A stretch of DNA of 64,000 nucleotides from positions 681,501-745,500 of the forward strand of contig NC_090953.1 in NCBI RefSeq assembly GCF_040807025.1, in the 5' to 3' direction. Origin of the DNA: Struthio camelus. Taxonomy: Eukaryota > Chordata > Aves > Struthioniformes > Struthionidae. This document shows positions 1 to 45,112 of the stretch, piece by piece (the first letter of the stretch is position 1; every line of letters begins with the position of its first letter). Below the pieces are notes generated by a model. The model did no database searches and was not told the origin of the DNA. It saw nothing but the letters and a program-made list of their open reading frames with translations. A program made the position numbers and the translations under genes.

Positions 1-2093
1 ACGCTTGCTCTGCCAGCAGCAGGACAGTGTAGGTTGTGAGTCCCTCCTGCATATCCTGTTACAGACCCTCCCTTCCAGGCTGGTTGAAATGAGTGTGAAA
101 GGGGCTAGACATCATGTTTCAAGAGCGTGTCCCTTGCCAGGGCCCTTGCTGAGCCCCTGCTGGGTGCAGTTGTGGACAGTGCAGGAGACATCCCTGAATC
201 CAGGAGTCTGGAGGGGATGTCAATGTTAAAAGGGAAGGTATTAGAAGCGAGAGCCCCTGGAGAGCCTTGCATCAGCAGTATGCCACTGATGTGAGGTATC
301 CTGTGCCCTCTGCGTGCTCCACCTTAGTAGTACCAGGAGCTCTGACAAAGTGCTTAGCCATGAGAGGCTGTTGGGTGCTTTCCTCTACTGCCAGAAGGTC
401 CAGCCTTCTAAACCTTCCAGATGCATTTACATGTCTATAACAGCTTCCTGGGAGTGATTGAGAAACTGTTCTCTTGTGAGCTCAGACAGGGGAGGGTGTT
501 GCTTGACATGTGTTAGCTGATACATAACTCAAAACTTGTCTGCAGGGAAACGCTGGGGAAAGTCTGAATAAACTTATTAAAAAGTGAATTTTTAAAAATT
601 TTATTCAATCACTATGTGGGCTTCTAAAGGGACCTCTGCTAAATCCAATTAAAGGCACATGTGAGAGTGTCTGCATAGCAGTTTAATGCAGTTTAGTTAA
701 TGTTAGAATTATGCCTTTGGTTACTTTTGATGAGTTTTGAGAGTATTCCTCTGCAGATCAGTCTCTGATTTTTTTTTTTTTTTTTTTTTTACAAGTTCCT
801 CTTTCTTCCCTTTTAAGTTTGAAGCCACACCAGCACGTGACAGAGTTAATATTTTGTCCCATTGGAGCAGGCTTTTCCTTTTGGAGTCATCTTCCACACT
901 CTTATCAAACTCTGGAAAGTAGCTCCATGGCAGTTACCATTTAAATCACCTTTTCTAGCTTTTTTTTTTTTTTCAAAGATCCTAAGCTAGAAATGAAGTT
1001 TTCCCAGCTGGGAATTGTCTGTGGAGAAGAGTTCCCAACTGTAGAGCGTTTCACGCTTGTCCTGTTCATGTGTCCTACTGTAACATATCCAACATCTCTC
1101 AGTTGTCCTTCCTGATTCCAAGAGGGCTCATGCCCTGCTCGGATCACCTGCTGTGATCATGTAGTTCCCATATTTCAACCCTTTCAAGCTGTTCTAGATG
1201 ACTGCAAGCCTGGCCCTTGTGGAAGAACACAATGACTAGCCATTGTCCCAGTCAGGGCCCTGTGACTGCAGTTTATCAGAACGTTGGCACCTGTTTTTTT
1301 CCCCCAGAACGGCCAAGTTCCGTGTTTCAGTGTGCTTTACCCTGTGCCAGGCTCTTTGGACTTGGGTTCAAACCACATCCTTGAAATTGGAGGTTCCGGT
1401 TGCCCTGGGTAGTACCAGGAACAACTGAAGACAATAGCAACTGGGTAGAAGTAACAGTTCAGAGGAAGCGTGACCCACTGCTGGAGGAGGAGCCCTCCGA
1501 GTTTGCTGGTATTACACCAGCTGTGCAGTCCGTTCACAGCAGGCTCAGCCAGGGCCAGGCTTATGTTCCAGCCACATGCCTCTTGCCAAGACAAACTTTC
1601 TCCTAGGGTCTGGAGCTGATGTGGGCTTTTTGATTTGGTTTCTGTGGTTTAGTGCGGGCTGGCACTAAGAGCGTGTCTGGTCGTCCCAGCACTATTGGGC
1701 AGTGCCTGTGCGGAAAGAGGCCTCCTTGTTTGGCTGCTCGCTGCGCGTATCCTGCTCGCAGCTCTGCCTAACCCCCTCAGCCTGCTCTGTGCACACCCCC
1801 AATCCTCCACACCACCCCTGGATGCTGCTCCTTTCCTGGAGCCAGGGTCCTGACCAGCTTCCTGGGGCTGAGCCTATGTGTGGTTGCCCTGGGAATAGGC
1901 ACTTCACTAGCACTGAAAGTAGGTGGGGTTTTGAAGAGGAATTTGTTCCTGTTCAGGGTAAAAGCCTGGGATGCAGTGAGCGATCTGACAGTTTTTGGCC
2001 AGGGCTGTAGCCTTTTGCATGTGCAAGCACTGGTGCTGTGTGCGGGAAATGTCTTGCTTGTTCTGTCCTGACCTTCCTTTCCTCCTGTCTCAG
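1..2093 (+). other. AP3S2 intron (partial)
   Basis: No coding sequence was found here. The segment lies upstream of the exon at 2094 and ends in a pyrimidine-rich acceptor (cag at 2091-2093). It contains a T run of about 22 nt at 769-790 and a shorter one at 961-973. The ORFs here show no resemblance to AP3S2. Confidence 0.7.
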
Positions 2094-11000: not shown

Positions 11001-13880
11001 CACGGGGCTGGGGTGATGAGCGGCAGGGACACCGCCCCTGGGTGCACCGAGCCAGCTGTGCTCAGCTGGCTGGGTGCCACTGGGTGATGGCGTGACCGGT
11101 CCCCGCATCCCCTGCCCCTCCAGCGGGCTGTGTCCCCTGCTCCCCCAGGGGTGAGCAGGCTGGTGAGGGAGCAGGAACCTCGGCAGGACCCTGGGGAGGG
11201 GGCCTGAGGCCGGCTGGGCGGCTGCGGGCTGTCCCCGGCAGCAGGGCGCCGCGCTCCCCGAGGCTGCGTGCGCCTGGCGTGGCCCGCTTCCCCCAGCAAA
11301 TGCCTTCCAGATGCGGTGGCCGCGGTGGGTCCCGCCGCTCCGGGGGCCCCGGCCTTGCTGGAGGCGCTGGCCCCGTGCAGAGGGGTGCCTGCCCCGTCCC
11401 CGCTCTGGGCGCACGGGAGCCCGGCTGCAGCCGGGGGCACCTCGCGCCCTGCGCCCTGCGCTGCACGGGGGGACGGGACGTGCCCGGCCAGCCCCTCCGG
11501 GCAGGGCAGGCCAGCAGCCCAGGGGTTAAGGTGGCGAGGAGCGGTTCAGGTTACTTCCCTTGGAGCCTTAGGAGGAAACTTTCCTCCCGCTGGCTGGCCG
11601 AGCTTGCAGAGGGGAGCCAGAGAGAGCCGTGGGCAGGCAGGGCGCAGGCAGGCTGCCCCGGCGGGGATGGGGCAGGCAGGGAGCCTGGGGCCTGTCGCGC
11701 CCCGGGGCTGAGCGCACTGAGGTGAGTGGGGCTGCCGCAGCCCGGACCCACGGCGGTGTCGGGGCAGAGCCTGGGGCCAGCAGCCTGCAGGCATCGCTGG
11801 GCTGGGCTGGGGAAAGGAGGGTCTGCGTGCCTGTGCCCGGGCTGAGTGCTGCAGGGGCTGCGGGGTGCACGGGGCCACGGCGCTGGGCAGCGTGATTTAC
11901 GTGCATGAGGAGCATGGGGTGCATGCGTGCTGCAGGGGCTGCGGGGCGTGCACGGGGCCACGGCGCTGGGCAGCGTGATTTACGTGCATGAGGTGTATGG
12001 GGTGCATGCGTGCTGCAGGGGCTGCGGGGCGTGCACAGGGGCCGCGGTGCTGGGCAGCGTGATTTACGTGCATGAGGAGCATGGGGTGCATGCGTGCTGC
12101 AGGGGCTGCGGGGTGTGCATTACAGTATGGAGCATATGTGTACTTTAGGAGGGCTACAGCGTGTGTGTGAGAGAGGTTATGGGGTGTGCAGGGCTGGGGC
12201 CTCAAGGAACCTCTGTGTGCGCGTGACCCAGTCTCTTCTGAGCGCCAGGTATTTGCACGTGGCCATGGAAATGGGACACGAGGTGCAGTGAGTGCCTGCT
12301 ATCTGCAAGGAATTGCATTGGGCAGAGGTTTTGGGGATGTGCCCTCACCCGAGCCGGGGTGAGCACTGGCGCACCGTGCCGCAGGGTGCCTCTGCGAGGA
12401 GCTGGGGTGCGGCATGCCCATCGGTGCAAGCTGGAGGGTGTTTGGGGGTCCCCGGGCACCGTCCCCGCTGGCTGTGGCCCCCGTCTCCTGGGGGGCTGCA
12501 CTAGAAGCAGACCCTGGCCAGAGCGTGTCCTGCAGCCCCAGGGCCTGCGCAGAGCCGCGGCTGGGCCGGGCGGTGGAAAGGTCTGACTCCGCAGGGCCGG
12601 GGATGCTGCACGGCACGGGGGTCGGGACGGCTCCCCATGCCCTCTGCAGCCACCAGCGACACCGGCAGCTGTGTCTGGGCGCTCTTGGGACGCTCGGGGA
12701 CGGGGCTGAGTTCCCTGAGGATGTTTCTTATCCATTTCCTATGTTCTTCCCAAGCCCAAGCGCTCCTGCTCCCGGCAGGGCAAGTCCTGCTGATGTCACA
12801 GCGCTGGAGAGATCAGATCTTGGGAAAAGGCACTTTCTGTTCCCGGGGCAGGATGGATCGCGCTTCCTCTCCCCGGGCCCTGCACGGGACTTTGTGCCTT
12901 CGCGCCTCTCTCCCTGGCGGAGCTCCCGGGCAGACCCGCGTGGCAGGCCAGCTCCCGCGCCCGGCGGGAGGGCGGCTCCGGCTGCTTTCCCTGGCAAAGG
13001 CACAGCTCTCCCTGCCCTCGCACGTGGCGCACCAGGCGCCCCTGCCCTGCGCACCAGTGCATCGGGCCCCGGGAGGTTTGCTCAGCTCCCAGCCGGAGCC
13101 TGGGGTCCCGGTGCTGTGGGGTGCAGGCGAGGCTGTGCCGGCCCGCGGGACGCCCGCTGGCTCCCGGCTGTGAGCCGGCCGCCGGGAGCCCGGAGCTCGC
13201 CCTGGCCTGCCGTGGCCACGGCTCTCGCACGGGCTGAGCGCTGCCCACGGTGCCCGAGGCTGCTCGGGACCCTGCGGTGGGAGCACCAGGCACCGGGCAC
13301 ACACTATCTTGAGATGAGTTCATGGGACCTGGAGTTTGGACTCCTCTGGTACAACATAAATCTGGTAATACGATCTTGGACTTTGTGAGCACAGTGGGCA
13401 GGGCAGTTTCGCCCCAGCGCGGCCCCAGGCTTCCACCCTCCTGCCTCGGCGGGACCCCCGGGCGCGGGCTGCGCTGCGCCCTCCTGCTCGCCCCCAGCCC
13501 CGCGAGACCCGGCGAGCTCTGCCGAGCCGTGGGCAAGCAGGGAGCGCCGAGTCCAGCCTTAAGGAAACCCCGGTCTGGGCTGGGGTACCGGGGCCGTCCT
13601 CCTCGCCCTGCAGAGAGCCGGGGTCGTGGCCACCAGCTGTGACACCGCTCTGCTCTTCCCTTCGCAGGGCCAGGCAGGCGCCCAGGAGGGAGCCCAGGCG
13701 TCCTGGCCTGCAGCCCGCGCCCGTTCCCACACTGCCTGTCCCTGTTGGTGCGGTCCCGAGCTGCTGGCTTCGCCCCAGCTGCAGCAACACTGCACTTCAC
13801 ATTACCACTGCGGCACAGCAGGGAGGCAGGTGCACAGAGAGCGTGTCCCCGGGGGCTGTCACCCCCCTGGGCCTCATGGC
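8013..13880. other. AP3S2-ANPEP intergenic region
   Basis: GC- and CpG-rich DNA in which every frame stays open for long stretches because stop codons are scarce. None of the long frames (for example 9252-10619 minus or 8769-9818 plus) resembles a known protein, and they overlap on both strands. A minisatellite lies at 11846-12125. Alternative upstream promoters or non-coding first exons of ANPEP could lie here, as in mammals, but I cannot point to one. Confidence 0.5.
11846..12125. repeat. Minisatellite, about 83-bp unit, 3.4 copies
   Basis: Units begin with gtgctgcagg at 11846, 11927, 12010 and 12094, giving periods of 81, 83 and 84 bp. Each carries the phrase gcagcgtgatttacgtgcat. The last copy is partial. 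It lies about 1.9 kb upstream of the ANPEP start codon. Confidence 0.9.
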
Positions 13881-13881
13881 C

Positions 13882-13895
13882 GTTTAATAATTCAC
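13882..13895 (+). promoter_or_regulatory. HNF1-like element upstream of ANPEP
   Basis: GTTTAATAATTCAC differs from the HNF1 consensus GGTTAATNATTAAC at two positions. A TATA-like ctaaaa lies at 13935-13940 and the ANPEP start codon at 13995. HNF1 driving the epithelial ANPEP promoter is known in mammals, where the site lies just upstream of the TATA box. The same arrangement here supports an intestinal and renal promoter. The function is inferred from sequence match and position. Confidence 0.55.
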
Positions 13896-13994
13896 CCATT
13901 AACCTGGACTAATAAACCTCGTGGGAGCGAGAGGCTAAAAGCCGTGCCAGGTGGGCAGAGCCTCCTTCCCCGGTGCTGCTCCTGCAGTCCCACC

Positions 13995-16018
13995 ATGGCG
14001 GCAGGGTTCTTCATCAGCAAGAGCGTCGGCATCGTGGCCATCGTGCTGGCCCTGGGGGCCGTGGCCACCATCATTGCGCTCTCGGTGGTGTATGCGCAGG
14101 AGAAGAACAAGCCTGCCGCCCCCTCCGCCTCCACCGCCACCACTACCACCACCACCACCACCACTGCCCCCATCACCACGGCCGCCCCCAGTAACCTCTG
14201 GAACCAGTGGAGGCTGCCCACAGCGCTGAAGCCGGAGAGCTACGAGGTGACTCTGAGGCCCTTCCTGAAGCCCAACGAGAACCAGATGTACATCTTCACG
14301 GGCAACAGCACTGTGGTCTTCATCTGCGAGGAGCCCACCGACATCATCCTCATCCACAGCAACAAGCTGAACTACACCATGCAGGGGGGCTTCCACATCT
14401 CGCTGCAGGTGGTGGACGGCTCCAGCCCACCTGCCATCAACAAGACCTGGCTGGAGACCACCACCCAGTACCTGGTGGTGCAGCTGGCAGCGCCGCTGCA
14501 GAAGGGCCAGTACTACAGGCTCTTCAGCATCTTCACCGGGGAACTGGCCGATGACCTGGCTGGCTTCTACCGCAGTGAATACATGGATGGGACGGAGACC
14601 AAGTAGGTGGAGGGCGGAGAGGGACGGTGGGAGACAGGGAAGAGGGAAGGGAGCTCAGGGAGAGCGGGTCTGTGAGATGGGCTGTGGCAAAGCATGGGGC
14701 TGGCCCAGAGACAGCAGAGGGCACGGGCCAGGTCTGGGGCATCTTGTCTCCAGCTGGGACTGCGGAGACACAAGGCTGTGGGTGCTGGGGTGCTCCATCC
14801 CCTGTGCCCCTGGGGCACAAGCCACCCTGGGTCTTGCCCTGAGCGTGTCCCCGTGCTCCTGCCTGCAGGCTGGGCTGGGGAGCAGGTGAGGAGCAGGGTG
14901 AGTGCTGCTCCCTTTGCTCTGCTGAGGGATCCTGACCCTCCCATGGGGCCATGGGGGCTGCGTGAGCTACGGGTGCCAATGGGGGATTCGTTTGCAGGGT
15001 CGTGGCCACGACGCAGATGCAGGCGACCGATGCGCGGAAAGCCTTCCCCTGCTTTGATGAGCCTGCCATGAAAGCCAACTTCACAGTCACCATCATCCAC
15101 CCGACCGACCACAAGGCGATTTCCAACATGCCTGCCAAGAGTGAGTGGGGCAGAGGGAGCCCCAGGGCTGGGACGGGGGGCCCGGGGCAGGCTGGCGATA
15201 TCCCATCCTTCTCCTCCTCCTTCAGGCACCTGGCAGCAGCAGATTGATGGAGAGAGCTGGAACGTCACCGAGTTCTTGACCACCCCCAAGATGTCCACCT
15301 ATCTGCTGGCCTTCATCGTCAGCCAGTTCGAGAGTGTGGAGAACACCTCGGGGAGGGTGTTGGTAGGGCTGGGAGCTTGGGGGACAGGGCAGAGCCTGGC
15401 GGGGGACGGGGGCTCGGGGTGTCGGCACGCATGGGACGGGGCAGAGCCGAGTGGGGGCTGAGCCCAGCGTCTCTCCCCTCCAGATCCGCATCTGGGGCCG
15501 TCCCCAGGCCATCGCTGAGGGCCAGGGCAGCTACGCGCTCCAGGTGACTGGGCCCATCCTCAGTTTCTTTGAGCAACACTACAACACGTCGTACCCGCTG
15601 CCTAAGTCTGGTGGGTGCTGGGGGGCAGTGGGGCTGATGGGGCAGCGCTCCCCAGCTGGCGTGCACGGGAAGGGGGTCGTGCTGCCGGCCGTGGGAGCAG
15701 CGGCCGGTCCGACCCCTGGGAAGCACCGCGCCAACGGGGCTTCTCCCTCCCCCAGACCAGGTCGGCCTCCCCGACTTCAACGCGGGCGCGATGGAGAACT
15801 GGGGGCTGGTGACCTACCGGGAGAACTCACTGCTCTACGACAACGCCTACTCCTCCATCGGCAACAAGGAGCGGGTGGTGACCGTCATCGCCCACGAGCT
15901 GGCCCACCAGGTGCCCGGCGGCCCCCTCCTGGCCCGTGCCCCACGGCCGCGATGGGCTGGCTGACCGCGTGCTCTGCTCCGTCCGCAGTGGTTCGGGAAC
16001 CTGGTGACGCTGCGCTGG

Positions 16019-16051
<33 letters not shown>

Positions 16052-19000
16052 TCCTACGTGGAGTACCTGGGCGCCGACTCGGCGGAGTCCTCCTGGGGCA
16101 TCGTGAGTGCGGGGTGCAGGGCACGGGGCGGGCTGGGGCTGCCAGGCACGGCCCCGCCGCCGGGAGGGTGCCGCGGGCGCTGACGCCGGCCCCCCGCAGA
16201 AAGACCTGATGGTGCTCAACGAGGTGTACACGGTGATGGCGACCGATGCCCTGGCCAGCTCCCACCCGCTGTCCTTCAGAGAGGAGGAGATCAACACCCC
16301 GGCCCAGATCAGCGAGGTCTTCGACTCCATCGCCTACAGCAAGGTGGGTGCTGGGGGGACCGAGGGGGTCCCGGGCCGCGGGTGGGCGGCAGGGGCGGCC
16401 GGGGGCTGCCCCGCGCCCGCCCCTCACCCCCTCTCCGCAGGGAGCGTCGGTGCTGCGGATGCTCTCCGATTTCCTCACCGAGGACGTGTTCAAGGAGGGG
16501 CTGCAGGTGAGGCTCCGCCGGCGCCCCGAGCCCCGTGCGGGAGGGCAGCCCGCGGCGGGGGGCTGCGCGGGGGCTGGCGCCTCCCCGGGCGCCGCTCGCC
16601 TGGGCCCTGCCCTCCACCGCTCTCTCCTCCTGCTCTTCCAGTCCTACCTCCACACCTTCGCCTACGGAAACACCATCTACACCGACCTCTGGGCTCATCT
16701 GCAGACGGTAGGAGCGGGGCTGGATGGTCTCCCCTGCCCTGCCGAGCCCCCTCAGCCCCGGCGTGGGAGGGGGGCAGCCCCCCGGCCCCCCGTGTGGGGA
16801 CCGACCCAGTGACCTGCCGCGGTCCCTTCTCCCGCAGGCTGTTGATAGGAACAACGTCTCCTTGCCCGGCTCTATCGGCCACATCATGGACCGCTGGACG
16901 CTGCAGATGGGCTTCCCCGTGGTCACCGTGAACACGCTCACCGGCACCATCAGCCAGAAGCACTTCCTCCTGGACCCCACCTCCAAGGTGGACCGACCCT
17001 CTGCCTTCAAGTGAGTGGCCCCATGGGTGGGTGGGCAGCAGGGGCCAGTGGCAGTTTGTCGAGCGGTCTGTTCTCTGCTGCTGCTGGGGGTTCCCGGACA
17101 TGCCGGTGGGGGCAGCGTGGTGGGCGAGCGACGGTGCCATGGTCTGCCCGTCTCCCCGGCACAGCTACACCTGGATCATCCCCATCACCTGGCAGACGTC
17201 CAACAGCACCGAGAAGAAGTACTGGCTGGAAGACGTCTCAGGTCTGTGGGTGCCTGCGTGGTGCCAGGCTCGGGGGGGCCTGGGGCAGGGGCTGAGCTGG
17301 GGGCTCGCTGCCACCCCCGGTGCAGGTGGAGGGGGCCGGGCTGGGCCGCAGCCGGGGTTCCCCTCGCGGCGTGCAGCTCCTGCAGATGCTCCTCTCCCCC
17401 GACCCAGCCACCTACAACGAGTTCAAGGTGAGCGGCCCCAACTGGCTCCTGCTGAACCTCAGGGTGAGCGGGTACTTCCGCGTCAACTACAACCAGGAGA
17501 ACTGGGACCAGCTCCTCCACCAGCTCTCCAGCAACCACCAGGTACGTGGGCCGGGGGCCGGTGGGGCCGGGGGCACGGCGGGGCCGGGCTGCGCCCCACG
17601 CCCGGGCTGCCCTGATGCACCTTTCTCCCAGGTCATCCCTGTCATCAACCGGGCCCAAATCATCGACGACGCCTTCAACCTGGCCAGGTGAGGGGTGCCG
17701 TCCGCGCGGGGGGACCACGGCCCTGCAGGGCCGAGGGGGGCCGGGGAGCCTGACCCATCCCTCGCCCCTCCGCAGGGCCAAATACATTGGGGTGACGGTG
17801 GCCTTGAACACCACGCGGTTCCTGAGCAAGGAGACGGCGTACATGCCCTGGCAGGCGGCACTCAACAACCTGAACTACTTCGAGCTGATGTTCGACCGCA
17901 GCGAGGTGTTCGGGGTGATGACGGTGAGCCGCGCGGCGCGGGGGCTGGCTCTGGGCCGGGAGCCGGGCTGGGGGTCGCTGCCCGCCTGCGCAGCGCTGAC
18001 CACCCTCCCTGCCTGCAGAAATACATCCGGAAACAGGTGTTGCCCCTCTTTGAGCACTACAAGTTTGTCACCAACAACTGGACCACCATCCCCAGCGGCC
18101 TGACGGACCAGTGAGTGCTGCGCGGCGCCGGGGCCGGGCTGGGACCTCCTTGCTCTGCATGGTCCTCCTGGCTCCCTGCAGGTCACGGAGGCTGGCCATC
18201 CACGATGGGACGGTGGCCCTGGGGCCCCAGCGTGCCCTGGGGAGGGGCTACCTGACCCTGCCTGTGGCCCAGCACAGGCTGATTGGTCCCGGGCCCCTGC
18301 GCTCATCCCCAGCCCCTCTTTGCTCCCCTCTCCCCAGGTACAACGAGATCAATGCCATCAGCACCGCCTGCTCCTATGGCATCTCCGAGTGCCAGCAGCT
18401 GGCCACCACCTTCCTCAGCGAATGGCAGAAGAACATCAGCAACAACCCGTGAGTCCCTCTGCACGGGGACGGGCCCGGGGCCGTGCCACACCGCCAGGCT
18501 GGGCACGGCGAGGTCTTCCCCATCCTGACCAACACGTCCTTTCCCCCCTGCAGGATCCCCCCGAACCTGCGCTCCTCCATCTACTGCAGTGCGGTGGCCA
18601 CTGGTGGCGAGGAGACCTGGGACTTCATCTGGCAGAGGTTCCTCGCGGCCACCGTGGTGGCCGAGGCGGACAAGCTCCGCTCGGCCCTGGCCTGCAGCAC
18701 CGAGCCCTGGATCCTCAACAGGTAGGAGGGGGGTCCCCGGCGCGGGCCGGCGGCGCTGCCACCAACACCGGCCCTCACCCCGGCGCCTCTCCCCAGGTAC
18801 CTGCAGTACACCATCAGCCCCGACAAGATCCGGAAGCAGGATGCCACCTCCACCATCAACAGCATCGCCAGGAACGTGGTGGGGCAGTCCCTGGCCTGGG
18901 ACTTCATCCGCAGCAACTGGAAGATCCTTTTCGGCCAGTGAGTGCCGCGCGAGCGGGGGCCGTGGGGCTGGGGCAGGAGGGCATCGTCGGCGCCCCGTGA

Positions 19001-21037: not shown

Positions 21038-21043
21038 TTTATT
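21038..21043 (-). terminator. Poly(A) signal, minus MESP gene
   Basis: The plus strand reads TTTATT, which is AATAAA on the minus strand, about 90 nt past the tentative stop at 21133-21135. It is the first canonical signal downstream of the minus MESP exon 1 and fixes the probable 3' end of that gene. Confidence 0.6.
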
Positions 21044-21132: not shown

Positions 21133-23288
21133 TCAGCTCCACCACCCCCCGCAGCGGGCCGGGGCGCCGCCGGGCAGCCCGGGGGCTGGCTGGGTGCCCG
21201 GCGAGATGAGGCAGGCCAGGGCCGGCGGGCTGCCGAGCTGTGCCGAAAGAGAGCTCTGTCGGCAGATCTGGCGCGGGACGGGACCGTGCCCTGCCCCCTG
21301 AGCACTGCATCCCGCACCCTGCGCCTCCACCCTGCACCCCACACCTGCACCGTGCACCCCACACCCCACACCGTGCACCCTGCAACCCACACCCCACACC
21401 TGCACCATGCACCGTGCACCCCGCACCCCACACCGTGCACCCTGCATCCTGCACCCCGCACCTGCACCCTGCACCCCGCAACCCACACCCCGCACCTGCA
21501 CCATGCACCATGCACACCGCACCCCACACCCTGTGCCCTGCACCCCGCACCCTGCACCCCGCAACCCACACCCCGCACCCTGTACCCCACACCCTGCACC
21601 TGCACCCCATGCCCCACACCCTACACCCCAAACCCCACACTCCGAACCCTGCACCCTGCAGCCACACCCCACACCTGCACCCCACACCTCGTGCCCCGCA
21701 CCCTGTGCCCTGCACCCCGCATGCTGCGCCCTGCACCCCGTGCCTTGCACCCTGAACCCCACACCCTGAACCCCACACTCCGAACCCCGAACCCTGCACC
21801 CCACGCCAGCGGCCTGGCTCTCCCGCGCAGCCGGCTCTGCAATGCCCCCTCCGCCAGCCCTGGCATGGCTTTGCCAGCACAGGACTTTGCTGGGGCATCC
21901 GCCTGGCAGCCCATCTCTGCCTGCACCCCGCGGGCAGCATCCCCCCAACCCACGCCATTCCCACGACGGCCCCCGGCCGCCTGCCTCCAGCCCGGCTGCC
22001 CCCCGAGCGGGTGGCAGGGGCCAGAGCCCGGCGCGGCAGGGCCAGGGGCTGTGCGTACCTGGGAGCGAGCATCAAGCTGAGCGCCGTGCACAGGGCATCT
22101 GTGGGGCTCCGTGTCCGTCACCACCGCCCCGGGGGCTGCCGGCTCCGTGCAGGAGGAGGAAGCGGTCCCAGTGCCGGCCACCATGTCGCGTCTTTGGGGG
22201 GGATGCAGCACAGTCGCTGCTCCGAGGCCACAGAGTGACGATGACCAGGACCCCGAGCCTGAGCCAGGGGCCCCAGGAAGCGCCTGGGTGACCATCCCTG
22301 TGTCCACAAACTCCGGCAACGTCAGCCCTGCCTCCAGGAGAGGGTCGCGGGGGGGCTCCGGGGGGCTCCCTGCCCCTGCGCAGTGAGGAGGGGACAGCCA
22401 GGAGGACACGTCGACGACGAGAGCCCCGTCCAGTCCCGGAGGGGTCCCAGCCATGGGGCCGCAGGGCAGCGATGCCCAAGCGCCCGTCCCCACGCCGGGC
22501 GCCCCGTCCAGCCCCACGGGGGTCTCGGCCACAGGGCTGCAAGGTGGCGATGCCCAGGCGCCCGTCCCCACGCCGGGCGCCCCGTCCAGCCCCACGGGGG
22601 TCCCGGCCGCCGGGCCGCAGGGCGGCGATGCCCAGGCGCCTGTCCCCATGCTGGGGGCCCCGTCCAGCCCCACGGGGGTCCCGGCTGCTCGACCGCAGGG
22701 CGGCGATGCCCAGGCGCCCGTCCCCACGCCGGGCGCCCTGTCCAGCCCCACGGGGGTCCCGGCCGCCGGGCCGCAGGGCGGCGATGCCCAGGCGCCTGTC
22801 CCCATGCTGGGGGCCCCGTCCAGCCCCACGGGGGTCCCGGCTGCTCGACCGCAGGGCGGCGATGCCCAGGCGCCCGTCCCCACGCCGGTGACCCCGTCCA
22901 GCCCCGCGGGGGTCCCGGCCGCCGGGCCGCAGGGCGGCGGGGGCCGGCAGCAGCCCAGCCCCGGCGGGCAGAGCGGGCAGCGGCGGGCGGCCGCCCCCCG
23001 GCGCCGCGCCGGCCCCTCCTCGCCCAGCCCCAGCAGCGCCGAGAGGTGCCCGATGTAGCGGGCGGCGAGGCGCAGCGTCTCCACCTTGGTGAGGCTCTGG
23101 CCCGCCGGCGCCAGCGCGGGCGGCAGGTAGCGCCGCAGCGTGTGCAGCGCCCGCGCCAGCTGCCTCATGCGCAGCTTCTCCCGCTCGCTGGCGCTCTGCC
23201 GCTGGCCCCCGACGGGCCCCCCGCACCGCCCCGGCAGCCCCCCGGCCCGGCGCTCGCGGGCCAGCAGCGGCGTGGGGCAGCCGGCCAT
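21133..23288 (-). CDS. MESP2: MESP-family bHLH factor, minus copy (MESP2 position)
   Basis: Mesoderm posterior bHLH transcription factor, a family that acts in cardiac and presomitic mesoderm. The start at 23288-23286 follows a TATA-like box by about 44 nt. The N-terminus is short (about 28 residues). The bHLH spans about residues 29-85 (QRQSASEREKLRMRQ, then QSLTKVETLRLAARYIGHLS). The family's CPXCP motif follows as RRCPLCP, then seven 26-residue repeats. Homology to the plus copy stops at 22284, where the expected donor is gcgctt instead of GT. The frame stays open to a good donor (CAG, gtacgc) at 22059, giving exon 1 = 22059-23288 (410 codons). A tentative exon 2 at 21133-21267 adds 44 residues but lacks the LLSLLE-type end of the plus copy. 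AATAAA on this strand at 21038-21043 supports a terminal exon there. Identity is certain, and the symbol follows from position beside ANPEP. The 3' structure is uncertain. Confidence 0.8.
21300..21830. repeat. Degenerate CACCCTGCACC-type minisatellite
   Basis: About 530 bp of irregular repeats built from caccctgcacc, cacaccccacacc and cacctgcacc. It lies inside the proposed intron of the minus MESP gene. One strand is almost free of G. All frames stay open through it, which explains the long ORFs seen here. Confidence 0.9.
22380..22930 (-). repeat. Coding minisatellite in minus MESP, 78-bp unit, 7 copies
   Basis: In-frame tandem repeat encoding 26-residue units of the type CGPAAGTPVGLDGAPGVG followed by TGAWASPP. 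Seven units can be counted; the last, nearest the end of exon 1, is divergent (CGPMAGTPPGLDGALVVD...). Units alternate between CGP and CGR starts, as if pairs had duplicated together. Confidence 0.93.
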
Positions 23289-23331
23289 GGTGGGGCGGCA
23301 GCGTGTCTGCGGGAGCCCGGGGCGGCCCCGG

Positions 23332-23356
23332 CTTTATGCGGGGCCCGAGGTGTGAA
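23332..23356 (-). promoter_or_regulatory. T-box site and TATA box of the minus MESP gene
   Basis: On the minus strand TTCACACCT (23356-23348) is followed after 9 nt by CATAAAG (23338-23332), about 44 nt before the ATG. The plus MESP promoter has the same two elements with the same 9-nt spacing. AGGTGTGAA is the T-box half site used by TBX6, a known activator of Mesp2 in mouse. Confidence 0.65.
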
Positions 23357-23357
23357 G

Positions 23358-23726
23358 CGACACCTTCGCGGGCCGCCCGGAGGTGTCAAAGCCCAGGGAG
23401 CGCGGGCAGGGGCCGGGGCCGGGAGCCTGGGAAAGCCGGACCCATTTGCGGAGGTGTCAGTTCTGACTCCTCCGGCCCTTAATTGGCGCTGCCCGGCGCT
23501 GGGAAGTGTGCAAGGGCCAATTCACACGGTCGTGAGAGATGCTAACGTGCCTACCAGCCCTGCCAGAGCTCGCCCGCGCCCCCGGCTCTCCTGGCGACTT
23601 TGCATGGTGCTGAGCTGCAGCGGCGACTTGACCTTGCAGCACTGGGAGCGCCACGGGAGAGCCGCCGAGCACCCTGAGCCACCGCCCGGGGGCTGTCAAG
23701 CCAGCTCCGTGTCCTCGGAGGTGTCA
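23358..23726. promoter_or_regulatory. Cluster of further T-box half sites upstream of minus MESP
   Basis: Matches to the TBX6 consensus AGGTGTBR lie at 23358-23365 (reverse), 23381-23388, 23452-23459 and 23719-23726. A related CGTGTGAA (reverse) lies at 23521-23528, and a TGGGAA core at about 23500. Binding is inferred from sequence only. Confidence 0.4.
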
Positions 23727-26539
23727 CCCTGTCCTGCACCTCAGCACGGGCGATGCCCACACCGCTTCTGCCCCTCTGCACAGCTCCCAGCCGTGGTCCC
23801 TGAGGGCTGGGGCTCCTGGCGTGCTCCCACCGCCACGTTACCGGCTCAGGGATGCTTGGCCAGGCCAGCGCATTTGGGGCAGACCGATGTGCGCCCTCGC
23901 TGGGATGTCCTGTGGCAGTCCCTGCAGCCCGGCTGTGCTGCCTTAGCCTCCCTGCACCCTGTGAGATGCAGCCCTGCTTCCCTGAGCACCTTGCAAGCTC
24001 TGGAGAAGCTGCAGGAACAGCCTGTGCTGTCTGAGGGCGCCCAGCCCTACGCCCCACCACGCTGCTCGGCTGCATGGAGCAGGGCTGGTCCAGCCGGCAC
24101 AAACCCCAGACCCTGGGCTGGAAACCCCAAGCTTGCAGCTTCAGCCCTCCCCACGCATCACTCCAGAAGGCTTGGTCTGGTCATTCTCCTGCCAAGCCCC
24201 TGTGTATCCCGCTCGGCTCTGCCCTGTGTGGGGCAGCAGGTTCCCATCGCCCCTGATGCCCTGTGGCATCACGCGCCTCGCGGCGGCTGGGCGGGCGATG
24301 GGGCAGGCTGGCCGCTGCTGGGCCGGGTTTCGGTGTGGCTCTATGGGCAAGAAGGGCCCTTGGCAGTGCCAGGCTCACGCTGGTCCCATGTGTGCACGTC
24401 CTGGGGGCTCTCAGCCGTGGGAGATCTGCTGCCTCCTGCAAGCTGTGCGCGGCTGCAGGAAGCACCAGACCACGGTGCTCAGCTCTTTGGGATGCTCCAG
24501 GGCCGGGAAGCCTGGCTGCACTTTGCAGGCTGGGGGAGCCTAGTGAGGGTATCAGGGAGGCAGCTGCTAGTCCAGGTTTCTCTCCTCCTGCTGCATCGAG
24601 GGCTGCTTTCTGGTGTGTTTTCTGCTGTGCTCTCCCCACCAGCCCTCCTCTGCCCCAGGGGATGTAGAGGAGTGCACAGCAAGGGGCCAGGGCCTTGCAG
24701 GTGTGTGACCCCAGCCACTCTCTGTCCCTGCCCTGAAAGGGCTGAGTCCTTCTTGCCAACGGAGTGAAGCCGTGGTGCTGGGAGAGGTGTGGGCAGCGGG
24801 CACAGGGGTCCTGGGTGAGGATGTGCTGCTGTGTGCGGAGCAGAGGAGGATGGAGCAGACACCCTCCCAGGACGCTGGAGCTTGCAGGAGGAGCATGCAG
24901 GAGAAGGGACAGCTTGCTGTACCTGTCCAGCAGCTCTGCTGGGTGCCCCAGATGTGTCCCCAGAGGTGCTGGAGGCACATAGCCCATGAACTCCTCCGGG
25001 CTCAGGCACGGTGCTTGTTCAGGGTCTGCTCCAGGAGATAAGCGGCCTGGGTGGAAGGCTGCCCATGTCAGGGGCTGGAGGGACCCCCGGGTCCCCTGTG
25101 GGGCTGGGGCCTGTGACCTCTCCCTGCAGCGAGGGGCCAGCTCTGACCCCACGTCCCAGCGCTGTCACGGCCCTGCCGCGCTCCAGCACTTGTCTAAACA
25201 CAGAGGGAGGTGGGAACCGGCTGCCCAGCGGGGCCGCAGAACTCATTACCCAGGAGCTCGTCAGCTAATGAGACCCAGGAGGGGGCCTGGGAAAGGGGCA
25301 AGGCAGGGCTGAGGGGCGAGCGCTCCAGGAGGCGGCCGGGCAGGGAAGGGGCGCCCGCGCGTGGGGCCGCCGGGCCGCGTGCCCCGGGCCGTGCCGATGG
25401 CCGTGGTGCGGAGCGCCCTGCCGCGCTCCCGGCTGCAGGCAGCCCGGCTCAGGGGGTGGTGTGCCGGCCGGCTGCTGTCCCTGCAAAGATGAGTCGGGTT
25501 TCTGAGCGTGGAAACGCTTTGCAGGGTCTGAGTTAGAGTCAGACACCAGCACGCTTGGACCTTGGACGGGAGAAGTGATGCAGCACTTCCTCTAGTGTAA
25601 GGGAGGGCAGGAGCGGGCAGTGAGAGCTGTTAACTCTGCAGTCCTTTATCCACTACGTTTGAAACGTTTGTAATGAGATAACTGCTGATTTAGCTGCCAG
25701 TGTCCTTATGATACCTAATAGAGGCTGCCTGGGCTGTCGCAAAGGTCCGTGGTGGTAGCCTTTAACAGGGCTCGGCTGGGCGGCGGGTGCAGGCAGCGGG
25801 TGACCCCTGCAGCGAGGTGCGCGGCGCACGTTTGCCCAGGCCCTGGCAGCGGCCCGGTTTGCAGCAGGGGGGTCAGGGACGCGCTTGGGGCTGCGCACGG
25901 GTCGGAGAGGAGAGCCGTGCCTCGCGGCCGTGGCTGGGTGCAGTGGTGGTGTGGCGGCAGGAAGGGCGAGAGGCAGGGGAGTCCCCAGCTGCCCGCGGCG
26001 TCCACGCCAGTGACCGGCTAGGGCTCAGATCGGCCCCAAGATGACCTGCAAAGGATGGTTTTGAAAGCCAACTGCCCTGTGCAGGCTGCCCGCCGGGCCC
26101 AACAGCACCCGGCGGGAGCGGGCTGCAGCCTGTGGCGGGGCGGCTGGCACGGGGCCGAGCCACGTTGTCCAGCCCCTGCCTCATCCTCCACCTCCTCCTG
26201 CCGAGGAGGGCGCGAGCACAGAAACTGCAGAGGTTCGGCTGGCTGGAGCGCACGGCCCAGGGCTGGCGATAAGCGCAGCCAGGCTTACCTCACAGCCGCC
26301 GTGCCATCGCCCCATGTTTCCGAGGATAACTTAATAACCGTCATGTGAGCGTTGGGAATCGTGAGCCCCATCAGTGACAAAGCCTTGGCTCATCCAGCGT
26401 TATCCCCAGCTCGGGGAGGAAAGTCCCTCCAACATGTCCCTGGGAGGAGCTGGCAGAGCCCGTGTGCCCCATGGCCAGCCCCACGCCCCACACAGCCTGG
26501 TTGCCTGTGCCCAGCCCCGTGCCCCCTGCCCACCTCAGT

Positions 26540-26690
26540 TCCCCTGCCCAGCTCCATGCCCCACACCCAGCCCTGCGCCCACTCCATGCCCCACACCCAG
26601 CCCTGCGCCCACTCCATGCCCCATGCCCAGCTCCATGCCCCACACCCAGCCCTGCGCCCACTCCATGCCCCATGCCCAGCAGCTCTGTGC
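26540..26690. repeat. Minisatellite, 30-bp unit, about 5 copies
   Basis: Tandem copies of a C-rich unit of about 30 bp, of the type ccatgccccacacccagccc then tgcgcccact. Some copies have ccatgcccagct in the middle. It lies between the MESP genes. Confidence 0.85.
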
Positions 26691-26867
26691 TCTGCACGCA
26701 GCCCCGTGCCCAGCTTCGTGCCCCACGCTCAGCTCAGTTCCCTATGCCCTGCTCGCTGCCCCACGGCTGGCTCCCTGCCCCTCCAGGGTCCCTGTCTGCG
26801 GGTTTCCATGTGGACCTGCTAGGGGAAATCGTGGGCTGAGCGTGCCCCCTCATGGGGGGGAGTCAGG

Positions 26868-27165
26868 CACACTGCTGTGTCCCCAGGGGCTGTGCACACC
26901 TGGTGACATGGGGGGCTGTGCACACTGCTGTGTCCCCAGGGGCTGTGCACACCCGGTGACAGGGGGGGCTGTGCACACTGCTGTATCCCCAGGGGCTGTG
27001 CACACCTGGTGACACAGGGGGCTGTGCACACTGCTGTGTCCCAGGGGACTGTGCACACCCGGTGACAGAGGGGGCTGTGCACACTGCTGTGTCCCAGGGG
27101 ACTGTGCACACCCGGTGACATGGGGGGCTGTGCACACTGCTGTGCTACAAGGGGACTGCCTACAC
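26868..27165. repeat. Minisatellite, 53-bp unit, 5.6 copies
   Basis: The phrase cacactgctg recurs at 26868, 26921, 26974, 27027, 27080 and 27133, an exact 53-bp period. Each unit contains two gctgtgcacac blocks and a ggtgaca. Some units carry CACACCT, the core of a T-box site. It lies about 0.8-1.1 kb upstream of the plus MESP start. Confidence 0.95.
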
Positions 27166-27591
27166 CTGCACGTTGGGGGCTGTGCGGGCTGCCCCCCGGG
27201 CGGCGGCTGCCTGCGGCACGGGCCCTGCGCAGCGTGCCGGGCCCGCAGCCTGCGTTTGGGGAGCGGGTCCCCCCCGCCCCTTCCCGCGCACCCCGCTCCC
27301 TGCTCTGTTTTCCTTGCGCGCCGCAGCGCTGCGTTTCCCTGGAAACCTTCACAGCAGCGGCGGGGAGCGACACCTGCGGGGGCCTGGGAACGCGGCGGGG
27401 GGCCCCCTCCCAGCCCCGGCGCCCCGGTGAGGGGCGTGCTTGGCCGGGGGCCGTGCCCCCCGGGCTGCTCCGTCCCGTGCGGGCTGCTGCGGGCTGCGCC
27501 GGGGCCGGGGCGCCCCTCGCCGGGGCTGCGGGGCTGCGCGGGCTGTGCCGGCGGGGGCTCCGGCGGGGCCGCTCGGCCCAGCAGGCGTCAG

Positions 27592-27624
27592 GGCTCATTA
27601 GTGGGAGCGTGTGAAACGCTATTA
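27592..27624 (+). promoter_or_regulatory. Candidate upstream element of plus MESP
   Basis: A short AT-richer patch in very GC-rich DNA, about 380 nt before the ATG. It contains CTCATTA, GTGGGAG (one base from the RBPJ core) and CGTGTGAA at 27608-27615. CGTGTGAA sits inside an inverted AGCGT...ACGCT repeat. The minus gene also has a CGTGTGAA upstream. Function is inferred. Confidence 0.3.
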
Positions 27625-27930
27625 GCGGGGGCTGCGGGGGGGCCGGGGCGCTTCACCCTCCGCCGTGGCCCGCGGCGGCGGGGGAGCGCGGCCCCACTCG
27701 CGGGTCGGTCCCGCGCGGCCCCGCCGGACCAGGGTGCGTGTCCGGGCCGGGGGGTCGGGGGGCCGGGGGGCGGGAAGGGGGGGTCGCCGTCGGGGAGTGG
27801 GGGGGGGCGACAGCCTCGCAGCGCCGGGGTAAAAATTCGTCACCAGCGTGTTCAAAGGCTGGCGACCCCCCCCCGCCCGCCCGCCCCCGGCCTTTGAAGT
27901 GCTGCCGACGCCGGCCGGCCGAGGTGCCAC

Positions 27931-27955
27931 TTCACACCTCCGGGCCGGCATAAAG
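27931..27955 (+). promoter_or_regulatory. T-box site and TATA box of the plus MESP gene
   Basis: TTCACACCT at 27931-27939 is followed after 9 nt by CATAAAG at 27949-27955. The start ATG at 27992 is 37 nt further on. The core promoter from TTCACACCT to the ATG is clearly homologous to that of the minus gene. Confidence 0.65.
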
Positions 27956-27991
27956 CCGGGGCCGCCGGGGCTGCCGGCACACGGCCCCGCC

Positions 27992-29510
27992 ATGGCAGCG
28001 CCGGCCCTGCCGCTGCTCGGCGCCTGGGGCCGCCCCGGCGACGCCGACGGCTACAGCAGCAGCAGCAGCAGCAGCAGCAGCTCGTCCGCCGCCTCGCCGG
28101 ACTCCTGCGGCCGCTCGCCGCCCTACGCGGCCCGCGGGCCCCGCCACGGCCCCGGCTCCGGCTCCAGCTCCGGCCCCGGCCCCGGCAGGAAGGGCGCCCG
28201 GGGGCCCGTCGGGGGCCAGCGGCAGAGCGCCAGCGAGCGGGAGAAGCTGCGCATGAGGCAGCTGGCGCGGGCGCTGCACACGCTGCGGCGCTACCTGCCG
28301 CCCGCGCTGGCGCCGGCGGGCCAGAGCCTCACCAAGGTGGAGACGCTGCGCCTCGCCGCCCGCTACATCGGGCACCTCTCGGCGCTGCTGGGGCTGGGCG
28401 AGGAGGGGCCGGCGCGGCGCCGGGGGGCGGCCGCCCGCCGCTGCCCGCTCTGCCCGCCGGGGCTGGGCTGCTGCCGGCCCCCGCCGCCCTGCGGCCCGGC
28501 GGCCGGGACCCCCGCGGGGCTGGACGGGGCGCCTGGCGTGGGGACGGGCGCCTGGGCATCGCCGCCCTGCGGTCGAGCAGCCGGGACCCCCGCGGGGCTG
28601 GACGGGGCGCCCGGCGTGGGGACGGGCCCCTGGGCATCGCCGCCCTGTGGCCCGGCAGCCGGGACCCCCGTGGGGCTGGATGGGGCGCCCGGCGTGGGGA
28701 CGGGCGCCTGGGCATCGCCACCTTGCAGCCCTGTGGCCGAGACCCCCGTGGGGCTGGACGGGGCGCCCGGCGTGGGGACGGGCGCTTGGGCATCGCTGCC
28801 CTGCGGCCCCATGGCTGGGACCCCTCCGGGACTGGACGGGGCTCTCGTCGTCGACGTGTCCTCCTGGCTGTCCCCTCCTCACTGCGCAGGGGCAGGGAGC
28901 CCCCCGGAGCCCCCCCGCGACCCTCTCCTGGAGGCAGGGCTGACGTTGCCGGAGTTTGCGGATGCAGGGATGGTCACCCAGGTATGTGCACTCTGTCACG
29001 TGGTGGGACAAGCCCTGATGTCCTTCCCTGTGTGGGGCTGACGAGGGGCTGGGCTCAGTCTTGGAGTGCCTGTGGCCTCCCCTTGGGGCTGTGCGGGAGG
29101 CTGGTGCTGGGGCGATGGCAATGTCACCTGGGGATGGGCACCGAAAAGCATTCCCCTCCTCGATGAGACGGGTGCTGAGCCTGCAGCGGGCACCTGCTGG
29201 GTGCTCGCTCCTGCAGCCTGCTCCGATCCTCCCTGGCGGCTCCCCCGTGTGTTTGCTGGGGTCTCCGCTGGCAGGATGGACTTGAGGCCACAGAGTGGCT
29301 TGGTCCTGACCAGGTGCCGTCCTGGTGGGTGGCTCTGGGCTTTGCTGGTCTGTCCTCCTGCTGCCCTCAGGAGACCCCTGGGACCCTGCCCCGAACCCCC
29401 TGCACTGGCCAGGCCCCCATCTCACCTATCCCTCTGCTTCCCTGCAGGACCTCTCTGCGGATCTGCTCTCACTCTTGGAGGCTCTGCTCCCGTTGCAGCC
29501 CCAGGACTGA
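27992..29510 (+). CDS. MESP1: MESP-family bHLH factor, plus copy (MESP1 position)
   Basis: Mesoderm posterior bHLH transcription factor of 350 residues. Exon 1 is 27992-28981 (330 codons) and ends CAG before gtatgt. Exon 2 is 29448-29510 (20 codons plus stop) after ctgcag and encodes DLSADLLSLLEALLPLQPQD, comparable to the DVLALLE...PL end of human MESP1. The N-terminus holds 11 consecutive Ser (residues 22-32, nine AGC codons then TCG TCC). The bHLH spans about 76-131 and the family CPXCP motif follows as RRCPLCP. Five 26-residue repeats then run to an acidic and hydrophobic tail. The start was chosen for its good context (cgccATGg) and its position 37 nt after the TATA-like box. The symbol follows the position farther from ANPEP; gene conversion makes sequence-based naming unsafe. 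Confidence 0.9.
28490..28880 (+). repeat. Coding minisatellite in plus MESP, 78-bp unit, 5 copies
   Basis: The same 26-residue in-frame repeat as in the minus MESP gene, here with five units. The last is the divergent CGPMAGTPPGLDGALVVD type. All non-repeat flanks align with the minus copy without gaps, so the length difference of the two genes (156 bp) equals exactly two units. Confidence 0.93.
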
Positions 29511-29755
29511 CCCGTTCTTGCCCGGGACTCTGGGGCGAACTCCTGGCTCCCCGGGGCTGGAGCCCCGGACGCCGCGTGGCTTCGTGGTGCACCAAGCAGC
29601 TGCGTGCAGCTCTGCGGTTTCGGGGGATGCGTGTCCCCTCTTGGACATTTTGGGGGGTGGTGGGGACAAGGAGCCTCTTGCGCAAGCCCTGATCTATGCT
29701 GGATGTGCTGGGGATGGCGGCGGTTGTACATAAATAAACCCTTGTGCCTATGCTG
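29511..29755 (+). other. Plus MESP 3' UTR with poly(A) signal
   Basis: Short untranslated region after the TGA at 29508-29510, with AATAAA at 29733-29738. A minisatellite begins about 38 nt after the signal. Confidence 0.75.
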
Positions 29756-29775
29756 TGTGTTACCTCCGTCCCCGC

Positions 29776-30135
29776 AGCGGGGGCCGGGCGCAGGGCATGG
29801 CCGGGGTGCAGCGTGCCTGCAGCGGGGGCCGGGCGCAGGGCACGGCCGGGGTGCAGCGTCCCCGCAGCGGGGGCCGGGCGCAGGGCACGGCCGGGGTGCA
29901 GCGTGCCCGCAGTGGGGGCCGGGCGCAGGGCACGGCCGGGGTGCAGCGTGCCCGCAGCGGGGGCCGGGCGCAGGGCACAGCCGGGGTGCAGCGTGCCCGC
30001 AGCGGGGGCCGGGCGCAGGGCACGGCTGGGGTGCAGCATGCCCGCAGCGGGGGCCGGGCGCAGGGCACGGCCGGGGTGCAGCGTCCCCGCAGTGGGAGCC
30101 AGGCGCAGGGCACGGCCGGGGTGCAGCGTGCCCGA
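29776..30135. repeat. Minisatellite, 45-bp unit, 8 copies
   Basis: The phrase agcgggggcc recurs every 45 bp from 29776 to 30091 (the last copy reads agtgggagcc). Copies differ by a few bases. The unit is a multiple of 3 and lacks stops in several frames, which produces long spurious ORFs on both strands. Confidence 0.95.
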
Positions 30136-37385: not shown

Positions 37386-39778
37386 CTAGGTGCTGGCTCC
37401 ACCACTGCCTGGTCTCTTTTCAGTGAAGAAGCTTTTGAGCAGCATCACTTGGCCAATGCTGACCACAAAGAGAATGACGGTTTCCCCAACCGACCAGTAC
37501 AAGACCCGGTCGTTGAGGTCTTCTGCTCTGTTCCGGTCCTGCGCTTCCCGCAGGCGATAGTGAGTCTGGGAGTCTATCACTGTGTTCAGAGCTTCATGGA
37601 TCGTGACGCAGGCAGACTCCATCTGGGGAGACAAACAAGCTCCATTGCTCCCCAATCCTGACACAGCATAGCTTGGACCCGGCCCTTGTGGCGAAAGGTG
37701 CTGAGGATCATCCTCGGGCGTCAGGGCTGGGCAGATGCACCCTGTGCTGCTGGTGTCTGCCAGCAGCAGAGGGGGAGGCCCCTGTGCCAGTTCTGCTTGA
37801 AGGGCAAACGTTCGAGACCAGGCCCTGACGGAGGTGCCTGCTGGGACTATCTGGGGCCCAACTGCCCGCGGCATCGAACGTCTCGTGCTCTGGAGGAAAA
37901 GGGGTGCCGGGGCGGTCTGACTGCAGGGCAGGGATACCCCGCTGCCCTGAGGCTACAGAGCGCGGTGCCTGGGAAGGGTGGGCCAGAGCCCACCGAGCCC
38001 GCATACAGATCCCCTCTGCGTTTGGGGCTGGGACTCAGGGAGGGGGTCTGGGTCCCAGCCCCAGGCACGGCCACCCCTCCTGGCTCATACAAGGGATGGA
38101 AAAGCCTTGCTGTGCTCTCTCCTGAATGGGGTGAGCCCTGGTGAAAACCACGGGGCTGCAGGACTTGAGGAGGTTCAGACCCAGCTCTGCCTTGGCTCAG
38201 AGCACCCTTGACATCTGTCTTTGTGCCTCTGCTCTGCCTGCGCTAGCAGCTCTGCTCCCCCTCTGGGAGGACAACCGTGCCTGCATCCTGCCAGAGCAGT
38301 TAGCTGGCAGTTGGGCACTTCTGCTTTTGGCAGAGGGGAAGGGGGATGAGTCCTGACCAGCCATCCCATGCGTTTGTGCTGTTTAGCCACAAGCAGGAGT
38401 TGCGGCAGGACCTTCTTCCTGATGTGAGAAGGGAGTTGCGGCGCGCAACAAACCTGTGTCAAGGCAGTGACTCGGTTGCTCATGTCGGGCAGGATCGGCG
38501 GCTCGTCGCCGACCTGGAAGTCGAAGTAGACTGTTTTGTGCGAGAAGGTGGAGAACTCGTTGCTGAAGCAGAAAGTGTAGACACCCTTGACTTCGGCTCG
38601 ATGTGGGAAGCTATCGTACTGCTTCTTGGTCTCCTTATAGATAGTCCTGCCGTTGGGGTCCTCCACATAGCAGTCCACATCATAGTGTCCCCCTGTGATC
38701 ACCTGCGGAATGAGACACACGGGTGGCACCTGCAGAACTGCCCTGCGAGTGCCTCTGCTCCGTCCTGGGGCCGTGACCTCGGCAGCGGCAGCGCAGGGCA
38801 CGGTGCTCGCAGCTGCTGGGGGCCCGCGACAGGCTGGGGGTGCAGGCTGCTAGAGCACCCAGGGAACTCTGTGCTCCGAGGTGCCTGGAGCTCATGCATG
38901 ATACCTGGGCAAGGCGGACGGCCCGAGCCGGCCCTAACGGCCAAGCCGGGGGCTCCTGCACCTGCCGCTGCTGCAGGCACATCCCGGCACTGCTGAGCGC
39001 CTCCGAGACAAGCACTGCTGGGCGCGTGGCCAGAGCTGGGAACGGCTCCCGGAGTGGCGCGGGGGGAGCTGGGACGGGTGTCTGGCTGGGGCGTGTAGGG
39101 CAGGTGCAAGTGGAGCCCTGCCAGGGCTGTGGGGTGCACGGTGGTGGTACAGGGCAGGGGCACGGGTGGGAGCAGGGGCAGGGCAGAGATGCAGGGGCGT
39201 ATGGGCAGGAGCAGGGGCAGGTGGCAGGAGCAGGGGCAGGTTGCATGGGCAGGGATGCAGGGGCATATGGGCAGGGGTAGGTTGCACGGGCAGGGGCAGG
39301 GCAGAGATGCAGGGGCAGGGCAGGTTGCACAGGCAGGGGAAGGGGTGCAGGGGCAGGGATGCAGGGGCGTATGGGCAGGAGCAGGGGCAGGTTGCACAGG
39401 CAGGGGCAGGGCAGAGATGCACGGGCAGGGGCAGAGATGCACGGGCAGGGGCAGGTTGCACGGGCAGGGGAAGGGGTGCAGGAGCAGGGGTGCAGGGGCG
39501 TATGGGCAGGAGCAAGGGCAGGTTGCACGGGCAGGGGCAGGAGCAGGGCAGGGGCGCAGGGGCAGAAGCAGGCTCAGGGCCAGGTTCGGGGTGCGCGGGC
39601 CGGGCAGGGGCGCCCAGCGGGGCCGTACCTGGTAGTCCAGCGTGAACTTGAGGCCCTGCTCCAGCTCCTCGTGGAAGCACTGCTTGTCGCTGTCGGGCAG
39701 CTCGAAGGTGAGCTCGGTGCCGGCGGCGCGGCCCGCCTGCAGCGCGCAGAGCAGCACCGCCAGCGCCCAGCCGCCCAT
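37386..39778 (-). CDS. TMED3: TMED3, p24-family cargo receptor, complete
   Basis: A p24 (emp24/GOLD) membrane protein that cycles between ER and Golgi in COPII and COPI vesicles. Exons on the minus strand: 39778-39629 (50 codons), 38702-38454 (83 codons), 37622-37386 (78 codons plus stop), all phase 0 and GT-AG. The protein has 211 residues (human 217). Signal peptide about 1-20, then the mature start TELTFELPD. The GOLD domain spans about 30-115 with C34, C61 and C95. A coiled coil (about 134-172) is followed by a TM segment at 178-196. The cytosolic tail is [16 protein letters not shown]; the FF sorting motif is at 198-199. The stretch [20 protein letters not shown] and the segment [10 protein letters not shown] match human TMED3. 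After EKRP the tail differs from the human ISRAVHS. Confidence 0.97.
37623..38453 (-). other. TMED3 intron 2
   Basis: An 831-bp intron between TMED3 exons 2 and 3, with donor gtttgt and acceptor ccccag. Nothing else was recognised in it. Confidence 0.85.
39137..39600. repeat. GCAGGGGCAG-type minisatellite in TMED3 intron 1
   Basis: About 460 bp of imperfect tandem repeats in the second half of TMED3 intron 1 (38703-39628). The building blocks are gggcaggagcaggggcagg, ttgcacgggcagg, agatgcaggggc and gtatgggcagg. On the TMED3 strand it is C-rich (ctgcccctgc), and it ends about 30 bp from exon 1. Confidence 0.9.

Positions 39779-43492: not shown

Positions 43493-45112
<1,620 letters not shown>

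Follow-up and report, generated by a model that had tools for sequence, protein, structure and literature searches.

We analysed a 64,000-nt stretch of the ostrich genome (Struthio camelus; assembly GCF_040807025.1, contig NC_090953.1, positions 681,501 to 745,500), hereafter the window, in which two genes assigned to the MESP family lie head to head and share a near-identical inverted segment within their first coding exons. All positions are those of the window and the features are collected in Table 1. An HLH domain (PF00010) was found in both genes, at residues 76–129 of the plus-strand gene and 29–82 of the minus-strand gene, with E-values of 7.2e-13 and 9.3e-13, and both reading frames are intact. 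The SASEREKLRMR and CPLCP motifs and a C-terminal motif of the DLLSLLE type are, we assume, MESP-like, and exon 2 of the plus gene presumably resembles the human MESP1 C-terminus. Both gene models are predictions made from the sequence.

Table 1. Features of the MESP locus and its neighbourhood in the window.
Feature	Position	Strand	Details and basis
Plus gene (MESP1 by position), predicted coding exon 1	27992..28981	+	330 codons; open frame
Plus gene, predicted exon 2	29448..29510	+	DLSADLLSLLEALLPLQPQD then stop, 20 codons; acceptor before 29448; AATAAA at 29733
Minus gene (MESP2 by position), predicted coding exon 1	22059..23288	-	410 codons; open frame, 225 nt beyond the shared tract
Minus gene, candidate exon 2 (inferred)	21133..21237	-	34 codons and stop; one acceptor-like site before 21237; AATAAA at 21043
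Plus arm, putative conversion tract within MESP1-position exon 1	28200..28982	+	783 nt; blastn
Minus arm, putative conversion tract within MESP2-position exon 1	22283..23221	-	939 nt; blastn against the plus arm
Identical stretch, bHLH and CPLCP region, in both copies	28200..28529	+	330 nt; blastn
Island with 10 of 13 differences, inside the tandem array, beside the length difference	28534..28681	+	arm alignment
Second difference-free block, 3' part of exon 1	28682..28958	+	277 nt; arm alignment
In-frame array of 78 bp (26 residues), plus gene	28482..28842	+	4.6 copies; Tandem Repeats Finder, unit table
Array of 78 bp, minus gene	22423..22939	-	6.6 copies; recent 156-bp (two-unit) internal duplication; Tandem Repeats Finder, unit table
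Plus promoter and start region, outside the tract	27856..28017	+	alignment
Minus promoter and start region	23263..23428	-	74% to the plus promoter; alignment
Clathrin adaptor small chain (Clat_adaptor_s)	1989-2441	+	Pfam; minus-gene side
M1 aminopeptidase domains (ANPEP-like)	13563-18938	+	Pfam; minus-gene side
p24/EMP24 protein	38178-38849	-	Pfam; plus-gene side
Ankyrin repeats	43496-45112	-	Pfam; plus-gene side

The near-identical inverted segment had been noticed in a preliminary description of the locus, and its presence was upheld when the reverse complement of 24000–22000 was compared with 27500–29500 by blastn; the arm ends given there were off by no more than about 1 nt. The two arms are separated by 4,978 bp. 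Blastn matched 28200–28851 with 23221–22570 at 612 of 652 positions and 28482–28982 with 22783–22283 at 486 of 501. The minus arm is longer than the plus arm by 156 nt, which equals two units of the in-frame array. With a 156-nt cut tried at every position of the minus arm and the one leaving the fewest differences retained, the arms were the same at 770 of 783 sites (13 differences, 98.3%) and the alignment was otherwise free of gaps. Dropping whole array units in register instead left 16 differences, the sum of the unit distances and three near the 3' end. At the protein level, 6 of 260 residues differ between the two copies. The earlier estimate of about 290 nt without a difference held as to identity, although the uninterrupted identical stretch is longer than that; the two-unit length difference had been missed.

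The 13 differences are clustered, with ten at 28534–28681 and three at 28959–28964, leaving difference-free blocks of 334 and 277 nt. Two gaps jointly as long were obtained in 1 of 200,000 random placements, by a measure that was chosen post hoc. Nine of the differences oppose CpG to TpG or CpA and two are transversions, the contexts having been tallied by eye. In the plus copy, the two difference-free blocks contain 79 CpG dinucleotides. At 28963–28964, the plus copy has TG and the minus copy CA, and a single ancestral CpG may have decayed oppositely in each. The preponderance of CpG sites, together with two differences that possibly stem from one lost CpG, suggests that few ordinary mutations have accrued.

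The tandem array provided further evidence on how the segment came to be shared. Its units were designated P1 to P5 in the plus copy and M1 to M7 in the minus copy. No difference was found between P4 and M6 or between P5 and M7, although 9–12 of 78 sites separate P4 from each of the remaining full units of the plus array. The variant GTCGAGCAGCC is common to P2, M2 and M4, and is thus a signature present in unit 2 of both arrays. These two observations speak for copying of the array as a block. M2 is the same as M4 and M3 differs from M5 by one site, suggesting that the minus array gained two units recently.

The identity of the difference-free blocks extends to silent sites, with no difference in 201 codons (109 and 92 in the first and second block, respectively). 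From codon usage alone, taken from the same two exons with the tract included, about 53 of the 109 and 45 of the 92 codons were expected to differ, about 97 of 201 in all. The probability that all synonymous choices would agree, given the protein, was about 10^-34.7 for 28200–28529 (109 codons) and 10^-29.3 for 28682–28958 (92 codons). Purifying selection and extreme codon bias acting since an old duplication, with no conversion at all, might be proposed to explain the identity, since third positions in the first block are 100% G or C and fewer silent changes are possible there. Mouse Mesp1 and Mesp2 are indeed 93% identical as protein over the basic helix-loop-helix (bHLH) region (PMC4506290); here the identity is 100% at the DNA level over 330 nt and reaches through the rest of exon 1, where it takes in the last full unit of the array as well as the 3' part of the exon. 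Because the codon probabilities are so low, codon bias cannot give this identity, and we attach next to no weight to an explanation of this kind. The absence of differences in 611 nt sets a 95% upper bound of 0.49% on divergence, or 1.5% on the 201 third positions alone. If birds accumulate about 2e-9 changes per site each year, the homogenisation would be younger than roughly 1–4 million years, a bound that selection makes loose.

We considered whether the two arms could be an artefact of assembly or polishing, that is, an inverted repeat that was collapsed, mis-joined or cross-polished. With about 80% G+C, the tract is difficult to sequence, and cross-mapping is a general risk in inverted repeats with near-identical arms. 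However, the arms retain their 13 substitutions and their difference in length, the flanks differ, the window is free of N and both frames are intact. Searches of the 1.45-Gb assembly (262 contigs), in which only the best candidates were scored, found the near-identical tract at no more than two places, whereas 1 kb of spacer sequence gave a single location. With the plus tract as the query, three of the 15 matches listed were pieces of the two arms and the other 12 were weak (67–85%) and short. No further near-identical copy, such as a haplotig, was among the matches listed. Three weak matches (67–71%) to the array part of the tract lie on another contig of the genome (G000:C74:97537-98070) and may be due to chance in G+C-rich repeats. 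Since the tract is found at two places and the spacer at a single one, an artefact is unlikely, and the collapse or mis-joining suspected in the preliminary description is not favoured by the assembly.

At the protein level, the bHLH region was likewise found at 100% identity at two places only, and the next of the 22 matches listed, an unnamed one, was at 59%. No further MESP gene was found at 100%, as the other 20 of the 22 listed matches were at 38–59%. Among solved structures, 7 bHLH sequences were matched, none of them named MESP, with NeuroD1 as the best (E-value 1.4e-5). One scan of viral_contigs returned 75 pattern matches with no relative among them.

The regions outside the tract were examined for their relatedness. 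The promoter and start regions of the two genes align at 133 of 179 columns (74%), with a score of 109 compared to 44 for the best of 300 shuffles. They carry at the matching place what we take to be a T-box-type motif, TCACACCT at 27932 in the plus gene and AGGTGTGA, read as TCACACCT in the reverse orientation, at 23348 for the minus gene. On the other side, no homology was detected by blastn or local alignment between the minus strand past the tract (22290–21000) and the intron, exon 2 and 3' end of the plus gene (28976–29760), the best pieces being 12 and 16 nt by blastn and about 25 columns by local alignment. The C-terminal motif of the plus gene was not found downstream in the minus gene, where the three frames scored 20, 21 and 24, all below the best of 200 shuffles (29, 28 and 29, respectively). 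With diverged promoters and start codons and nothing aligned downstream, the flanks show that the paralogy is old.

The edges of the tract are sharp. Its 5' edge lies 17 nt ahead of the codon at which the Pfam HLH match begins, and its 3' edge falls one shared G past the final base of the plus-gene exon. In the plus gene, this edge coincides with a predicted donor, CAG/GTATGT at 28981/28982, which matches eight of nine consensus letters. The minus gene reads CAG/GCGCTT at the same point, without GT, and its frame stays open; its exon 1 probably runs on past the tract. The tract end had previously been taken as the end of exon 1, which holds for the plus copy but not for the minus copy. The sole match in the minus gene to the donor pattern used is CAG/GTACGC at 22058, with seven of nine consensus letters. 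Similarly, the N-termini had been described as quite different. About 22 residues precede the tract in the minus gene and about 69 in the plus gene, in agreement with that statement, but the start region itself aligns. In the plus gene, a CAG run at 28054–28081 encodes several serines within the N-terminus; the minus gene lacks this run. A long simple repeat of the CCCTGCA type (21289–21801) falls within the predicted minus-gene intron.

The G+C content at third positions is 71% in the minus extension, 99–100% in the N-terminal parts and 82% in the 3' block of the tract. The lower value of the extension is weak evidence of a former intron, because the 3' block of the tract is itself only at 82%. 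If the last conversion ran to the end of homology, the exon of the minus gene would once have ended there and its donor would have been lost since.

Sharp edges, with sequence just outside them that aligns poorly or not at all, could also be produced by exon shuffling, in which a recent partial duplication put the segment into one of the genes and no homologous exon was replaced. The homology of both promoters and start codons, however, indicates that both genes already had a MESP start, and a MESP gene lacking its bHLH region before such an insertion is implausible. We consider exon shuffling quite unlikely.

The neighbourhood of the pair bears on its age. A Pfam scan of 25 distinct open frames, picked from many by length and composition, of which 10 were matched with the MESP exons included, gave the order clathrin adaptor small chain, M1 aminopeptidase, MESP(-), MESP(+), p24 protein and ankyrin protein over 1–64000. 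Since the scan covered part of the frames, this order is incomplete. We take the neighbours to be AP3S2, ANPEP, TMED3 and an ANKRD34C-like gene, with ANPEP assigned by its domain and place. According to PMC10445033, MESP1, MESP2 and ANPEP lie on one flank of WDR93 in therians and sauropsids have other genes there; the passage is silent on where the bird MESP genes lie. In mouse, Anpep adjoins Mesp2, away from Mesp1 (PMC8791502). Because it adjoins the aminopeptidase gene, the minus copy is designated MESP2 by position and the plus copy MESP1. A head-to-head MESP pair beside an ANPEP-like gene is thus found here as well, and the agreement of this gene order with therians and mouse suggests that the pair is old. 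In chicken, Table 1 of PMC2862960 gives four Mesp-like entries on one contig, which may reflect an early assembly, and the same paper marks chicken Mesp1 and Mesp2 as failing to group with a single human gene. This pattern is compatible with conversion but is no proof of it. Two other tandem arrays lie close to the genes, one of 45 bp with 8.2 copies just past the 3' end of the plus gene (29767–30134) and one of 53 bp, present in about six copies, within the intergenic spacer (26867–27185).

We propose that MESP1 and MESP2 in the window are an old head-to-head pair in which interlocus gene conversion recently replaced the core of one exon 1 with that of the other, and we assign this explanation a probability of roughly 0.88. 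Recent conversion between the paralogues had been put forward earlier and is supported here: identity is 98.3–100% in a limited tract, silent sites included, compared to 74% in homologous flanks. This contrast, the sharp edges, the identical last full unit and tail of the array, the shared variant in unit 2 and the clustering of the differences all argue for conversion. It is best explained as recent, possibly repeated and limited to the homologous part of exon 1. A break or a stalled fork in one copy may have been repaired from the other as a non-crossover, with conversion running to the end of homology, which would be the exon/intron junction in one direction and, in the other, the point where the N-termini diverge. 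Copy number differs in the array, which may have been skipped by the last event or since turned over by exchange among its own units. The island of differences, flanked by two blocks that were newly homogenised, would on our reading be either an older layer or a product of faster turnover of array units, and the data do not distinguish the two. The outcome would be two factors with the same DNA-binding domain, separate promoters and different N- and C-termini.

Several observations weigh against this proposal. The correspondence of array units is not clean throughout, as P1 and P3 both have M5 as their nearest unit (2 and 3 differences, respectively) and P2 is equally close, with 6 differences, to P1, M2, M4 and M5. 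Nor would one simple event account for all of the findings, given how the differences cluster. For the age of the paralogy, synteny and promoter homology in one species are the basis, and one genome does not reveal the direction of conversion or how many events took place.

Gene conversion between inverted paralogues is known from the palindromes of sex chromosomes. The MESP pair resembles these in its opposite orientation, short spacer, near-identical arms and retained spacer. It is unlike them in that its arms are shorter than 1 kb, comprise part of a coding exon only and lie in a G+C-rich region. Mammalian Mesp1 and Mesp2 are likewise head-to-head paralogues with a near-identical bHLH region, and Mesp2 has a unique C-terminus (PMC4506290). 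The two genes are about 16 kb apart in mouse and about 25 kb in human (PMC4506290), whereas the tracts here are 5 kb apart. In a literature search that left most subscription journals outside, no account of MESP1/MESP2 gene conversion was found, the term co-occurring only for G+C-biased conversion in another gene; for concerted evolution of Mesp, titles and the starts of abstracts yielded nothing on the gene. The near-identity of the bHLH protein was already known, and we did not find DNA identity through most of the exon, with a shared coding array, described in that literature. We regard the MESP pair as a clean further example of gene conversion, a process already established.

Mesp1 and Mesp2 act in the formation of heart progenitors and somites and are largely interchangeable in mouse (PMC4506290, PMC8791502), where the Mesp1 coding sequence replaces that of Mesp2 almost completely (PMC8791502). 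A wider concert across vertebrates is a tentative and rather doubtful extension of our findings. The DNA-binding exon of the inverted pair would be homogenised again and again while promoters and C-termini diverge, and the two genes would be interchangeable for this reason and not by constraint alone. In the lineage studied here, conversion would also run exactly to the ancestral end of the exon, the MESP2 copy would have lost that donor and the former intron would serve as a new C-terminus. If conversion keeps the DNA-binding exons alike, trees of MESP1 and MESP2 based on the bHLH region would mislead on orthology, and the known redundancy of the Mesp genes would in part be a product of DNA repair. 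On our reading, the locus is furthermore an instance of two genes that share a coding tandem repeat by way of conversion.

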